64,000 nucleotides of DNA from assembly GCA_021770845.1 (NCBI GenBank), contig JAETQF010000015.1, positions 1 through 64,000 of the forward strand. Direction: 5' to 3'. Below are positions 55,428-61,743 of the stretch, piece after piece; the first letter of the stretch is position 1, and each line of letters begins with the position of its first letter. The translations under genes and the position numbers were made by a program. The notes below the pieces were generated by a model that made no database searches, was not told where the DNA came from, and worked only from the letters and a program-made list of their open reading frames with translations. Source of the DNA: Oscillospiraceae bacterium. Its GTDB lineage: Bacteria; Bacillota; Clostridia; Oscillospirales; Oscillospiraceae.

Positions 55428-55840
55428 CTACCGCCCGACGCCGTGGGACTTGACCCGCAGGCGGTTCAGCGCCCGGGCCAGGGTGGCCTGGGCCACCTGG
55501 TGCTCCTGGCGGCTCTTTTTTTGCAGCAGGGCCTCCCGGGCCTCGTCGGCCTCCCGGCGGGCCCGCACCTCGTCGATCTCCTCCGGGCGCTCGGCGGAGT
55601 CCACCAGTACCAGCACCTCATTCTTCTCCACTTTCACCATGCCGGGGGAGACGGCGGCCAGCTGTACCTCGCCGTCCGGGGGCTGCCAGCGCAGCGTGCC
55701 GGGCTGGACGGCGGCGATCATGGGGCTGTGGTGGGCCAGGATGCCCTGCTCCCCGTCGCTGGTGGGGATGGTGAGGCTGACGCAGGGCCCCTCATAGAAG
55801 GTGCGGTCGGCGGCCAGAATGTGTACCTGAAAGGCGTCCA

Positions 55841-55841
<1 letters not shown>
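55428..55841 (-). CDS. atpC: F1 ATP synthase epsilon subunit
   Basis: A 137-aa subunit. The beta barrel has FQVHILAADRTFYEG, SDGEQGILAHHSPMIAAVQPG and VSPGMVKVEKNEVLVLVD; a helical hairpin follows. It links gamma to the c ring and can brake ATP hydrolysis. Its ATG overlaps the atpD stop (TAATG), so the two are coupled. Last gene of the operon. Confidence 0.93.
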
Positions 55842-58146
<2,305 letters not shown>

Positions 58147-58147
58147 G

Positions 58148-59908
58148 TCAGCCGCCCTGCTTTCCGCCGCCCCGGAACTGCTCCAGGTATTCGTGGGCCA
58201 AGGTCAGGATCTCCTCCCGATCCTCCGGGGGGAGCTGGCCGGTCAGGTCGATGCGGCGGCACAGGTCGGCGCCGCTGGTTTCCACGTAGTCCAGCAGGCC
58301 CGCCCGGAAGGCGTCCATCCGCTCCAGGGGCACATCCTGCATCACGTGGCCCAGGGCGGACACCAGAATGACCACCTGCTGGTGCTGGGAGAAGGGGGCG
58401 TACTGGGGCTGGCGCAGCAGGCGCATGAGCCCCTGGCCGTAGGTGAGCTGCCGCTTGGTGGCGTCGTCCAGGTCGCTGGAGAACTGGGTGAACACCTCCA
58501 TCTCCCGGTACTGGGCCAGCTCCAGCCGGATGGCCCCGGCGGCGGACTTCATGGCCTTGGTCTGAGCGTCGCCGCCTACACGGGACACGGACAGGCCCAC
58601 GTTGACGGCGGGCCGCTGGCCGGAGAAGAACAGGTCGCTCTCCAGGAAGATCTGGCCGTCGGTGATGGAGATGATATTGGTGGGGATATAGGCGGACACG
58701 TCCCCCGCCTGGGTCTCCACGATGGGCAGGGCGGTCATGCTGCCGCCCCCCAGCTCGTCGCTGAGGTGGGCGGATCGCTCCAGCAGCCGGGAGTGGAGGT
58801 AGAACACGTCGCCGGGGTAGGCTTCCCGGCCGGGGGAGCGCTCCAGCAGCAGGGACAGGGCCCGGTAGGCCACCGCGTGCTTGCTGAGGTCGTCGTAGAC
58901 GATGAGCACGTCCCGGCCCTGGTGCATGAAGTGCTCGCCCAGGGCGCAGCCGGCGTAGGGGGCGATATACTGCAATGCGGCGGACGCCCCGGCGGGGGCG
59001 GAGATGACACAGGTGTAGTCCATGGCCCCCCGGCGCTTCAGGTTCTCCACCAGCTGGGCCACCGAGCTGGTCTTTTGGCCGATGGCCACATAGATGCACA
59101 CCACGTCCTTGCCCTTCTGGTTGAGGATGGTGTCAATGGCCACGGCGGTCTTGCCCGTCTGCCGGTCGCCGATGATGAGCTCCCGCTGGCCCCGGCCGAT
59201 GGGGAACATGGAGTCGATGGCCAGCAGGCCGGTCTCCATGGGGGCGTTCACCGGCTGGCGATCCAGGATGCCGGGGGCGGGGGCCTCAATGGGCCGGCGG
59301 CCCTGGGGGCGCAGGCGGCCCCGGCCGTCGATGGGCTGGCCCAGGGCGTCCACCACCCGGCCCAGGAACTCGTCGCCCACGGGCATACCGGCGGTTTTCA
59401 GGGTGCGGCGCACCATGCTGCCCGCGCTGATGGCCTCGCTGTCCCCGAACAGAATGCAGCTCAGGCCGTCGGGCCGCAGATCCTGCACCATGCCCCGCAC
59501 GCCGCCCGAGAAGATCAGGATCTCGCCGTACTGGGCGTGCTCCAGGCCGGTGACGGTGGCGATCTCGCTGTCCACGGTGCGCACGGTGCCGATCTCCTCC
59601 GGGACGGCGGCCAGCTCCCAGTCGTCCACCGCCTGGCGCATCAGGGGGAGCAGGTCGTCCTTCCCCGGCTGGAGCTGCCGCAGGTAGTCGGTGAACTGCC
59701 GCACCCGGCCGTCGAACGTCCAGTCGTACACGTCGGAGCCCACCTGGAGCCGGAAGCCGCTTTTCAGGGCGGCGTCCTCCTCCCAGTGGAGGGGAACCGT
59801 CCGGTGGTAGGTGCGGGTGAGGAACTCCTCAAACCGGTGGAGCTGTTCGCCGGTGGGGCGGGCGGCGCTGCGCAGCTCGGCGCTGAGCCGGCTCCTACTT
59901 GCTCTCAT
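58148..59908 (-). CDS. atpA: ATP synthase alpha subunit with an N-terminal delta (OSCP)-like domain
   Basis: A 586-aa protein, about 80 residues longer than normal AtpA (~505). Residues about 10-80 match the C-terminal part of the delta subunit (AtpH): FEEFLTRTYHRTVPLHWEED, then LKSGFRLQVGSDVYDWTFDG and RQFTDYL. Alpha follows, with GTVRTVDSEIATVTGLE, Walker A GDRQTGKTA (about 247-255) and PAVNVGLSVSRVGG with the Arg finger. No separate atpH exists between atpF and atpA. The ATG at 59908 has GGGAGG eight bases upstream and lies inside the end of atpF, so the long start is real. Confidence 0.9.
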   Translation of the reverse strand: MRASRSRLSAELRSAARPTGEQLHRFEEFLTRTYHRTVPLHWEEDAALKSGFRLQVGSDVYDWTFDGRVRQFTDYLRQLQPGKDDLLPLMRQAVDDWELAAVPEEIGTVRTVDSEIATVTGLEHAQYGEILIFSGGVRGMVQDLRPDGLSCILFGDSEAISAGSMVRRTLKTAGMPVGDEFLGRVVDALGQPIDGRGRLRPQGRRPIEAPAPGILDRQPVNAPMETGLLAIDSMFPIGRGQRELIIGDRQTGKTAVAIDTILNQKGKDVVCIYVAIGQKTSSVAQLVENLKRRGAMDYTCVISAPAGASAALQYIAPYAGCALGEHFMHQGRDVLIVYDDLSKHAVAYRALSLLLERSPGREAYPGDVFYLHSRLLERSAHLSDELGGGSMTALPIVETQAGDVSAYIPTNIISITDGQIFLESDLFFSGQRPAVNVGLSVSRVGGDAQTKAMKSAAGAIRLELAQYREMEVFTQFSSDLDDATKRQLTYGQGLMRLLRQPQYAPFSQHQQVVILVSALGHVMQDVPLERMDAFRAGLLDYVETSGADLCRRIDLTGQLPPEDREEILTLAHEYLEQFRGGGKQGG

Positions 59909-60386
59909 GGGCCGCGCCTCCCTCTGCCAGATCTAAAAACTGGTCGAAGGGATCCTCGTGGAGGGCCAGCCGCTGGGCCGCCGTCTCCGCCAGCCTGCGG
60001 ATGTCCTGCTGGGAGTCGTACAGGGCCTGCTCCCGGGTGCGCTCCGCGTCGGCGTGGGCCCGGGACACGATGAGCTCGGCCTGGGCCTGGGCCTGATCCA
60101 GCTGCTCTTGAACGGACTGCTGGAGGGACTGCTGGGCCTTGGCGCGGGACTGGCGGATCTCCTCCTCCGCCCCCTCCAGCTTCTCCTTGTACTCCGTCTG
60201 GATCCGATCCGCCTGGGCCAGCTTGTCCTGGGCCTGCTGATCCAGCTGGCGGTAGTGCTCGTCCCGCTTGGCCATGAACTGCTTCACCGGCTTGTACAGC
60301 AGGAAGTACAGCCCGCCCACCAGGATGGCCAGGTTCATCCAGTGCAGCAGAATCTGCTGCGGGTCAATGTTTAAAGGCCACGGCAT
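59895..60386 (-). CDS. atpF: Fo ATP synthase b subunit
   Basis: A 163-aa subunit. It has one N-terminal span (LHWMNLAILVGGLYFLLYKPV) followed by a long coiled-coil rich in Gln/Glu/Arg (EHYRQLDQQAQDKLAQADR). It is the peripheral stalk. ATG 60386 is preferred because AAAGGAGG lies ten bases upstream; the upstream in-frame start is doubtful. Its last 14 bases overlap the start of the [10 protein letters not shown] gene. Confidence 0.93.
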   Translation of the reverse strand: MPWPLNIDPQQILLHWMNLAILVGGLYFLLYKPVKQFMAKRDEHYRQLDQQAQDKLAQADRIQTEYKEKLEGAEEEIRQSRAKAQQSLQQSVQEQLDQAQAQAELIVSRAHADAERTREQALYDSQQDIRRLAETAAQRLALHEDPFDQFLDLAEGGAAHESK

Positions 60387-60405: not shown

Positions 60406-60768
60406 TTACAGCACAAAGATGATCAGGATGACCACCAGCAGGGCGTAGATGATGGCCGTCTCGATAAACACCAGGCCCAGCATCAGGGTGGTGCGCACCT
60501 TGCCCTCCGCCTCGGGCTGGCGGGCGATGCTCTCAGTGGACTTGGCGGTGGCCAGGCCCATACCCACGGCGCCGCCGGCGGCGGCGATGCCCACGGCGAT
60601 GCCCGCGGCGATGGCCTTCAGGCCGATGGTGGAGCCCTCCTCCGTCTCGGACTGGGCGGCGTCCTCCCCCCGGGCGGGGGCGTCGGAGGCAAAGGCGGGG
60701 GCGGCCAGGGCCAGAGTGAGCACCAGCGCGCCGGCCAGGATCAGGATCTTCTTCAGCAGATGTTTCAT
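60406..60768 (-). CDS. atpE: Fo ATP synthase c subunit with N-terminal signal-like extension
   Basis: A 120-aa c subunit. Residues 1-~28 form a signal-like hydrophobic start (LILAGALVLTLALAAPAFAS), and an acidic linker to ~45 follows. The helical hairpin has GIAVGIAAAGGAVGMGLAT, the loop IARQPE and the ion-binding Glu103 in LVFIETAIIYAL. The usual c subunit is ~75-90 aa. The Gln typical of Na+-type rings is Met70 here, so H+ is more likely, though ET after the site is seen in Na+ types too. Confidence 0.93.
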   Translation of the reverse strand: MKHLLKKILILAGALVLTLALAAPAFASDAPARGEDAAQSETEEGSTIGLKAIAAGIAVGIAAAGGAVGMGLATAKSTESIARQPEAEGKVRTTLMLGLVFIETAIIYALLVVILIIFVL

Positions 60769-60817: not shown

Positions 60818-61657
60818 TCAGGCGTGCTCCGCCGGGGCGGGCGCCTGCTTCTTCTTGGGCTTGGGCGGGGAGGGCTCGGACACCTCGCCGTAGTACATGG
60901 ACGTGAGCATCGTCAGCACGTAGGTCTGGATGACGGCGTGGAGCAGGGTGAACAGCACGCCCACCACCACCGGCAGCACGAAACTCAGGTTCACGTAGTA
61001 GTAGACCAGCTCCGTCACCAGCAGGCCGCTGAGCAGGGCGCCGAACAGACGGAAGCTCATGGAGATGGGCAGGGAGAACTCCTTCAGGGTCTTGCCCACG
61101 CCCTTCACGCCGTTGGCGGCGATGCCGCCGGACAGGATCACCAGATAGGACAGGGTGCCCAGGGCGATGGCGGCGTTCACGTCGGACAGGGGGGCGGGCA
61201 GGGTGATGGGGTGCCCCCCCACGGTCACCGCCTGGATGCCCAGCAGCTCAAACAGGGTGCCCACGAAGATGAAGGCGCCGGCGGCGAAGATGTAGGCCCC
61301 CACGAACCGGAAGCGGTGGGGGCTGGCCCCCCGGGCCATGTTGTCAAAGAGGCCCACCGCCTGCTCCAGCAGGAGCTGGAGCTTACCGGGGATATACCGG
61401 AAGCGGGGGACGGCGAATATACGGATCAGGGCGGCGGCGATCAGCAGGATGATCGTCACCAGGAAGGCGGAGATCAGGCCTGGGTTGACCTCCTTCAGGC
61501 CCAGCAGGCTGATCCGGTTCACGTCGTGGAGCACCGCGTCCCGCATGGTTTCCTGGACGGTCTCCACCCGCTCCCCGGGGCCGGCCAGCAGCGCCCCGGC
61601 CAGCAGCAGGAGCACGATCCCGATCCACACCGCCAGCCCTTTTTTGTGCTGGTTCAT
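60818..61657 (-). CDS. atpB: Fo ATP synthase a subunit
   Basis: A 279-aa membrane protein with an N-terminal span and five to six helices. The conserved Arg helix is ISMSFRLFGALLSGLLVTELV, and the last helices have HAVIQTYVLTMLTSMYYGE. It forms the ion path with the c ring. ATG 61657 is preferred to TTG just before it, with AAGGGATG upstream. First gene of the operon atpB-E-F-(H)A-G-D-C. Confidence 0.93.
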   Translation of the reverse strand: MNQHKKGLAVWIGIVLLLLAGALLAGPGERVETVQETMRDAVLHDVNRISLLGLKEVNPGLISAFLVTIILLIAAALIRIFAVPRFRYIPGKLQLLLEQAVGLFDNMARGASPHRFRFVGAYIFAAGAFIFVGTLFELLGIQAVTVGGHPITLPAPLSDVNAAIALGTLSYLVILSGGIAANGVKGVGKTLKEFSLPISMSFRLFGALLSGLLVTELVYYYVNLSFVLPVVVGVLFTLLHAVIQTYVLTMLTSMYYGEVSEPSPPKPKKKQAPAPAEHA

Positions 61658-61743
61658 CAAGCATCCCTTCTCTCAATGAAATCCTTTGGGCTCCCATTCT
61701 TTCCAGAAGCCCCGCGCCCGTGTGGGCCGGACGCATCGTCCCC

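Follow-up and report, generated by a model that had tools for sequence, protein, structure and literature searches.

ATP synthases in which a shortened delta subunit (OSCP) is joined to alpha have been built by engineering. According to Ueno et al., 2025 (PMC12229609), the N-terminal domain of delta sits on the pseudo-threefold axis and limits the enzyme to one peripheral stalk. In the Bacillus PS3 enzyme, delta residues 2-104 were removed and the remainder was fused to alpha (deltaDeltaN-alpha), which gave enzymes with up to three peripheral stalks and a subunits; the H+/ATP ratio was 5.8 in the fusion enzyme as compared to 3.0. In cryo-EM, particles with all three stalks were very rare, and gels indicated about two stalks on average. 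The Discussion of that paper also points to natural deltaDeltaN-alpha (Acidaminococcus fermentans, UniProt G4Q3K6, A0A1I2C5T3), described there as awaiting experimental verification. Since that source holds both the engineered architecture and these named natural cases, the gene described below is not new in kind.

Other rotary enzymes arrange stalks and delta differently. In V-type enzymes a single a subunit goes with two or three stalks. The mycobacterial b-delta fusion keeps the delta N-terminal domain and is present in one copy per enzyme. In mycobacteria delta is carried by the stator subunit b (7jg5_d and others), whereas the delta C-terminal domain (deltaC) studied here, which the mycobacterial deltaC matches, is fused to alpha. 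According to PMC5706428, N-ATPases have no delta, and their b is extended and resembles the E subunit. The N-type ATPase, the V/A-type E subunit and FliH share with the operon described here the lack of a separate delta; their delta-like domain is on the stalk, whereas here it is on the catalytic hexamer. The ATP synthase of Chloroflexus aurantiacus (9itj and five more entries) is F-type, with 12 delta chains in 6 entries; in 9itk these are chains S and W, and delta is a chain of its own of 157 aa, listed as subunit delta. This suggests two deltas per complex and that a natural two-delta enzyme may already be solved; a literature search found no paper on these structures. Literature searches, with preprints and subscription journals thinly covered, likewise found no survey of natural delta-alpha fusions and no reports of b'-deltaC-alpha, tandem or full-delta fusions. 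The survey of the fusion's spread and recurrence given below is new; the architecture itself was already known.

The window, i.e. the whole stretch of DNA analysed, comprises 64,000 nucleotides of an Oscillospiraceae genome (GCA_021770845.1, contig JAETQF010000015.1). Its minus strand carries a seven-gene atp operon, atpB-E-F-A-G-D-C, with the following features:

60818..61660, minus strand: atpB (a subunit), ORF and Pfam
60406..60768, minus strand: atpE (c subunit) with a signal-peptide-like N-terminal extension, ORF and Pfam
59895..60386, minus strand: atpF (b subunit), from an ATG with Shine-Dalgarno sequence, ORF and Pfam; C-terminal stretch FDQFLDLAEGG
59917..59922, minus strand: Shine-Dalgarno sequence GGGAGG of atpA, within the end of atpF, sequence and SD score
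58148..59908, minus strand: atpA, fused deltaC-alpha subunit, 586 aa, stop included; ORF, ATG start, Pfam, TIGR00962
59669..59908, minus strand: delta (OSCP) C-terminal domain, atpA residues 1-80; PF00213, hhalign, predicted model and PDB matches
59600..59668, minus strand: linker and alpha N-terminal helix, atpA residues 81-103; alignment to 9jc1_I, helix by analogy
58148..59599, minus strand: alpha barrel, nucleotide-binding and C-terminal domains, atpA residues 104-586 and stop; PF02874, PF00006, PF00306
57250..58146, minus strand: atpG (gamma), ORF and Pfam
55841..57253, minus strand: atpD (beta), ORF and Pfam
55428..55841, minus strand: atpC (epsilon), ORF and Pfam; both Pfam domains present

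The c subunit (60406-60768, minus strand) has 120 aa, including its signal-peptide-like N-terminal extension (MKHLLKKILILAGALVLTLALAAPAFA...); the usual c subunit is shorter.

A preliminary description of this DNA had proposed that alpha starts about 80 residues early and that the extra part resembles the C-terminal half of delta. The F-type alpha model TIGR00962 matches atpA with 704 bits (curated cut-off 484) and begins at residue 84 of 586; atpA thus carries about 80 additional N-terminal residues. Within these, residues 2-75 correspond to positions 97-171 of the 172 positions of PF00213 (OSCP), scoring 29.1 bits when the full protein is searched and 34.4 bits (E 3e-8) when only residues 1-84 are, both above the gathering cut-off of 22.3 bits. 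A complete delta was looked for and its N-terminal domain was absent, only positions 97-171 of PF00213 being matched in atpA. When a profile from 48 fused N-termini was aligned by hhalign to one from 13 free full-length deltas, the probability was 97.8% and the E-value 7.6e-13, and the match falls on the C-terminal part of delta. The AlphaFold model of residues 1-85 has its best matches among delta/OSCP C-terminal domains at a moderate pLDDT of 75.6; the first 41 rows of the Foldseek search with this model are all F-type ATP synthase entries, FliH and V1-ATPase chains stand in lower rows, and VIA-align served only as a re-check of Foldseek's own list. Judged by these profile and model matches, the N-terminal part of atpA is the C-terminal domain of delta and not a complete delta subunit, and the early start, the likeness to delta and the loss of its N-terminal unit all hold as first proposed.

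A misassigned start codon, with the delta-like stretch lying outside alpha, or a resemblance by chance would agree with the modest OSCP score of the single protein (29-34 bits) and the moderate model confidence. We consider this very improbable: the ATG of atpA is preceded by a strong Shine-Dalgarno sequence (GGGAGG, 59917-59922) inside the end of atpF, as the preliminary description had noted, with an overlap of 14 bases between the two genes; the delta-like and alpha parts lie in one open frame with no stop between them; and conservation in many relatives, the profile E-value and the fold match in Foldseek stand against it as well. Hence atpA is confirmed as a natural fusion of the delta C-terminal domain to the N-terminus of alpha. 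An N-type identity of this alpha was rejected, the two models of alternate F1F0 enzymes remaining below their cut-offs (TIGR03324, 620.1 as compared to 750.5 bits; TIGR03305, 594.5 as compared to 752 bits).

The absence of a separate atpH from the operon, also stated in the preliminary description, holds. The genome of the window (2.48 Mb, 48 contigs) is 82% complete, and in a PF00213 search of it no free delta was found elsewhere; it returned atpA and one sub-threshold match only, a protein on another contig with 11.1 bits. The latter was rejected as a free delta: it is FliH (PF02108, 32.8 bits; cut-off 24.1), encoded between FliI and FliG, and the neighbouring FliI scores above the cut-off of TIGR03497. 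Neither of the two outcomes that the preliminary description had named as refuting, a free full-length atpH or a lack of OSCP similarity in residues 1-85, was thus observed in this 82% complete genome. These flagellar genes lie at G000:C42:33641-36926, where G000 is the genome of the window. A further ATPase of the family, perhaps V-type judging from a weak atpA match and length only, lies at G000:C34:19379-20428.

The engineered PS3 fusion (9jc1, chain I) aligns with residues 15-564 of the window's alpha. Both have deltaC on the N-terminus of alpha, no delta N-terminal domain and, within the 82% complete genome of the window, no free delta. They differ in that the PS3 protein is man-made with GGSGGS at the junction, whereas the window has a natural linker about three residues shorter, and in that the C-terminal domain of epsilon was removed from the PS3 enzyme, whereas the window's epsilon has both Pfam domains. 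Going by the authors' description (PMC12229609), A. fermentans, G4Q3K6 and A0A1I2C5T3 share the window's architecture, a delta-alpha gene fusion without the delta N-terminal domain. The class of A. fermentans is a different one.

The fusion recurs among relatives. Of 60 genomes examined (that of the window plus 59 relatives), 32 scored above cut-off for OSCP, and the same ones did so for atpA: 18 have deltaC-alpha, 2 b'-deltaC-alpha and 10 a free full delta, one has a free deltaC of 74 aa and one a free delta whose N-terminal part has diverged (Pfam positions 86-171 only). In the other 28, atpA remained below cut-off, with 24 weaker matches to related ATPases (including an F1-like alpha in G009, see below) and 4 without any. 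A pattern search of named genomes matched 180 stretches, of which 177 encode a relative; the best 80 of these 177 include deltaC-alpha from strains that bear the labels Flintibacter muris, Colidextribacter, Acutalibacter and Faecalibacterium.

Across the order, 205 of 394 genomes have OSCP above cut-off, and among the matches listed most are full-length, in frames of 173-199 aa. Searching 61 of the 205 again gave 48 with the fusion, 7 with free deltaC, 1 with b-deltaC, 2 with deltas that have the N-terminal domain and are unfused to alpha, and 3 other or unassigned. Together with six known from the survey of relatives (G000, G039, G052-G055), the fusion is present in at least 54 of the 205 delta-bearing genomes. 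In all 48 fused genomes re-examined, every OSCP match (E <= 0.001) lies inside a fused ORF; G133 has two such matches, both in a single ORF. Three matches were not counted as ATP synthases (L111 in G232, and those in G154 and G310); L111 was rejected since it adjoins a FliI-like frame that is 28% identical to alpha. One genome, G413, has two fused operons on different contigs, b'-deltaC-alpha (L088, C31) and deltaC-alpha (L315, C36), the latter 73% identical to the window's alpha. Read by hand, and in samples that overlap one another and the order-level set, an open fused frame is found in at least 33 of 197 genomes with a match at class level (341 searched) and in at least 18 of 285 at phylum level (348 searched). 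Some class-level genomes have fused and unfused alpha together; in G621 the unfused alpha has a full delta of its own (L305).

The 298 loci that could be classified were picked by search with duplicates included, so that the following are counts and not frequencies: 168 deltaC-alpha, 86 free full delta, 17 b'-deltaC-alpha, 15 full-length delta fused to alpha, 9 free deltaC, 2 tandem deltaC-deltaC-alpha (both in G133) and 1 b-deltaC. Five were assigned by hand (L092 as b'-deltaC-alpha; L081, L204 and L297 as deltaC-alpha; L087 as b-deltaC), and L144 was rejected as a stop-to-stop artefact. Pfam confirms two of the b'-deltaC-alpha proteins, with ATP-synt_B, OSCP and alpha domains all above cut-offs, and also the tandem, one full-length delta-alpha fusion and three reduced free deltas. 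Several single loci were of note. In L087:1492-2208 (minus strand, G314) b is fused to a lone delta C-terminal domain, a layout like that of the V/A-type E subunit; L052:1267-2049 (minus strand, G169) is a free delta in which the C-terminal domain occurs twice in tandem, and L053:1-2004 (minus strand, G363) a full-length delta fused to alpha. The single contig of G275 has free deltaC at C1:13680-13865 and 1707256-1707441 with identical scores, perhaps from duplicate operons.

Trees of the alpha core were built with FastTree (188 rows, thinned by identity from the 277 that were long enough) and with IQ-TREE (91 rows, hand-chosen from the former to span all states). The fewest fused/free changes are 12 in both; all states together need 16 changes in the FastTree tree and 18 in the IQ-TREE tree, and presence of the N-terminal domain needs 9 in the latter. 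A single fused clade, with 60 fused rows constrained, was rejected (log-likelihood 702 lower, p-AU 1.5e-50). The fusion is therefore recurrent, with at least 12 fused/free changes; by such counts fusion, fission and transfer are indistinguishable. Support is weak for several of the deeper branches, and fused rows surround three of the free full deltas (L212, L216, L217). In the clade of the window, free full delta and full-length delta-alpha fusion lie outside the main deltaC-alpha group, a nesting that points to fusion first and loss of the N-terminal domain later; in another clade two deltaC-alpha genes are surrounded by free deltaC genes, which points to loss first and fusion later. Tree nesting thus suggests two routes to deltaC-alpha. 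The 14 b'-deltaC-alpha rows form one clade with support 100.

F1 has three alpha subunits, so that three delta-like units per F1 follow, as already stated in the preliminary description. The delta C-terminal domain, which grips the end of the b dimer, is placed on the N-terminus of each alpha, and the delta N-terminal domain, which in ordinary enzymes occupies the axis of the alpha3beta3 crown so that only one delta fits, is gone. With deltaC on every alpha and the axial domain lost, F1 would offer three equivalent b-docking sites instead of one and could hold more than one b2 stalk, up to three, and a single a subunit or several, like the PS3 fusion. In the window's enzyme the three docking sites are identical in sequence, and the C-terminal stretch FDQFLDLAEGG of b is retained as judged by eye. 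The gene atpA encodes a natural deltaDeltaN-alpha subunit. We infer stalk number, a-subunit number and ion/ATP ratio in the window's organism by analogy with the engineered enzyme: the subunit would probably go with more than one b2 stalk, up to three, and one or more a subunits.

The fusion might instead serve only as an adaptor that replaces delta, with a single b2 stalk on one deltaC and the other two deltaC empty, because one a subunit and the geometry of the membrane allow only one. A single stalk and a single a subunit are usual in F-type enzymes, the window's operon has one a gene (atpB) and one b gene (atpF), and the rarity of triple-stalk particles and the gel average of about two in PMC12229609 also speak for a single stalk. 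The identity of the three sites speaks against it, as do the b'-deltaC-alpha fusions, which give every alpha a membrane anchor, and on balance we regard a single stalk as rather unlikely. All 17 b'-deltaC-alpha loci, from 15 genomes, encode a fused chain that begins with a hydrophobic (membrane) helix, and each has a separate b-like frame immediately upstream, as in these two examples:

L033:7488-9707, plus strand: b'-deltaC-alpha, separate b-like frame just upstream
L034:7610-9817, minus strand: b'-deltaC-alpha, separate b-like frame just upstream

At the nine of these loci whose b end was inspected by eye, the end of the separate b is without the docking pattern of other b subunits. The gene structure of b'-deltaC-alpha would imply three anchors per F1, if the chain stays whole, and among natural enzymes no other lineage argues as strongly for several stalks. 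Given the architectures of the relatives, natural multi-stalk F-type ATP synthases thus appear more likely. From the full-length delta-alpha fusions it is clear that a delta can be joined to alpha with its N-terminal domain still in place; since three such domains cannot share the axial site, fused deltas need not all be used alike.

Alternatively, part of the alpha pool might be without deltaC, by an internal translation start or proteolysis, giving on average one fused and two bare alphas per F1. The GTG codon of residue 109 (window position 59584) is preceded by an SD-like GAGGAG at a distance of 9 nt, and an SD-like start is present at this position in 59 of 172 fused as compared to 3 of 89 free loci. 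Likewise, SD-like starts occur in the linker in 48% of 142 fused loci, 52 of those loci having one at the residue-109 position, as compared to 18% and 29% in control stretches of alpha at the same threshold. However, among 84 fused loci with EExGxV, GAGGAG with GTG occurs 39 times where 35.4 (SD 4.1) are expected from codon use, and a start at residue 109 would remove the N-terminal helix of alpha. The enrichment at the main position being explained by codon use, the internal start at residue 109 was rejected, and a mixed alpha pool is improbable.

For more than one stalk on the deltaC-alpha enzyme, a life on small gradients would offer a rationale. RnfD/NqrB (PF03116) is present in 13 of 15 genomes of the window's genus with the fusion and in 0 of 5 with a free full delta (hand tally); it is also present in each of the 5 free-full-delta genomes examined from other families. 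A general link of the fusion to RnfD/NqrB was therefore rejected, and as there is none beyond the genus, the low-gradient rationale is unproven. Taking the survey together, it is quite conceivable, and put forward here tentatively, that anaerobic Clostridia, many of which live in guts, widely possess natural F-type ATP synthases with two or three peripheral stalks, possibly combined with more than one a subunit and a higher ion-to-ATP ratio, and that these enzymes arose repeatedly: by fusion and then N-terminal loss, by loss and then fusion, and with b', deltaC and alpha in one chain. Natural multi-stalk occurrence was proposed in PMC12229609; the recurrent series from free delta to b'-deltaC-alpha makes this proposal directly testable and is relevant to ATP formation by anaerobes at small ion gradients.

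A separate F1-like operon was observed in a genome of the same genus (L308:434-5188; G009:C29). It encodes a membrane coiled-coil-like protein, an alpha-like protein, gamma, a ParA-like ATPase and a beta-like protein; a search of the 60 genomes gave no second alpha close to that of this operon. The beta-like protein, cut by the contig end, has an N-terminal extension rich in Gly, Met, Pro and Ala, and the operon possibly encodes a rotary machine other than ATP synthase.
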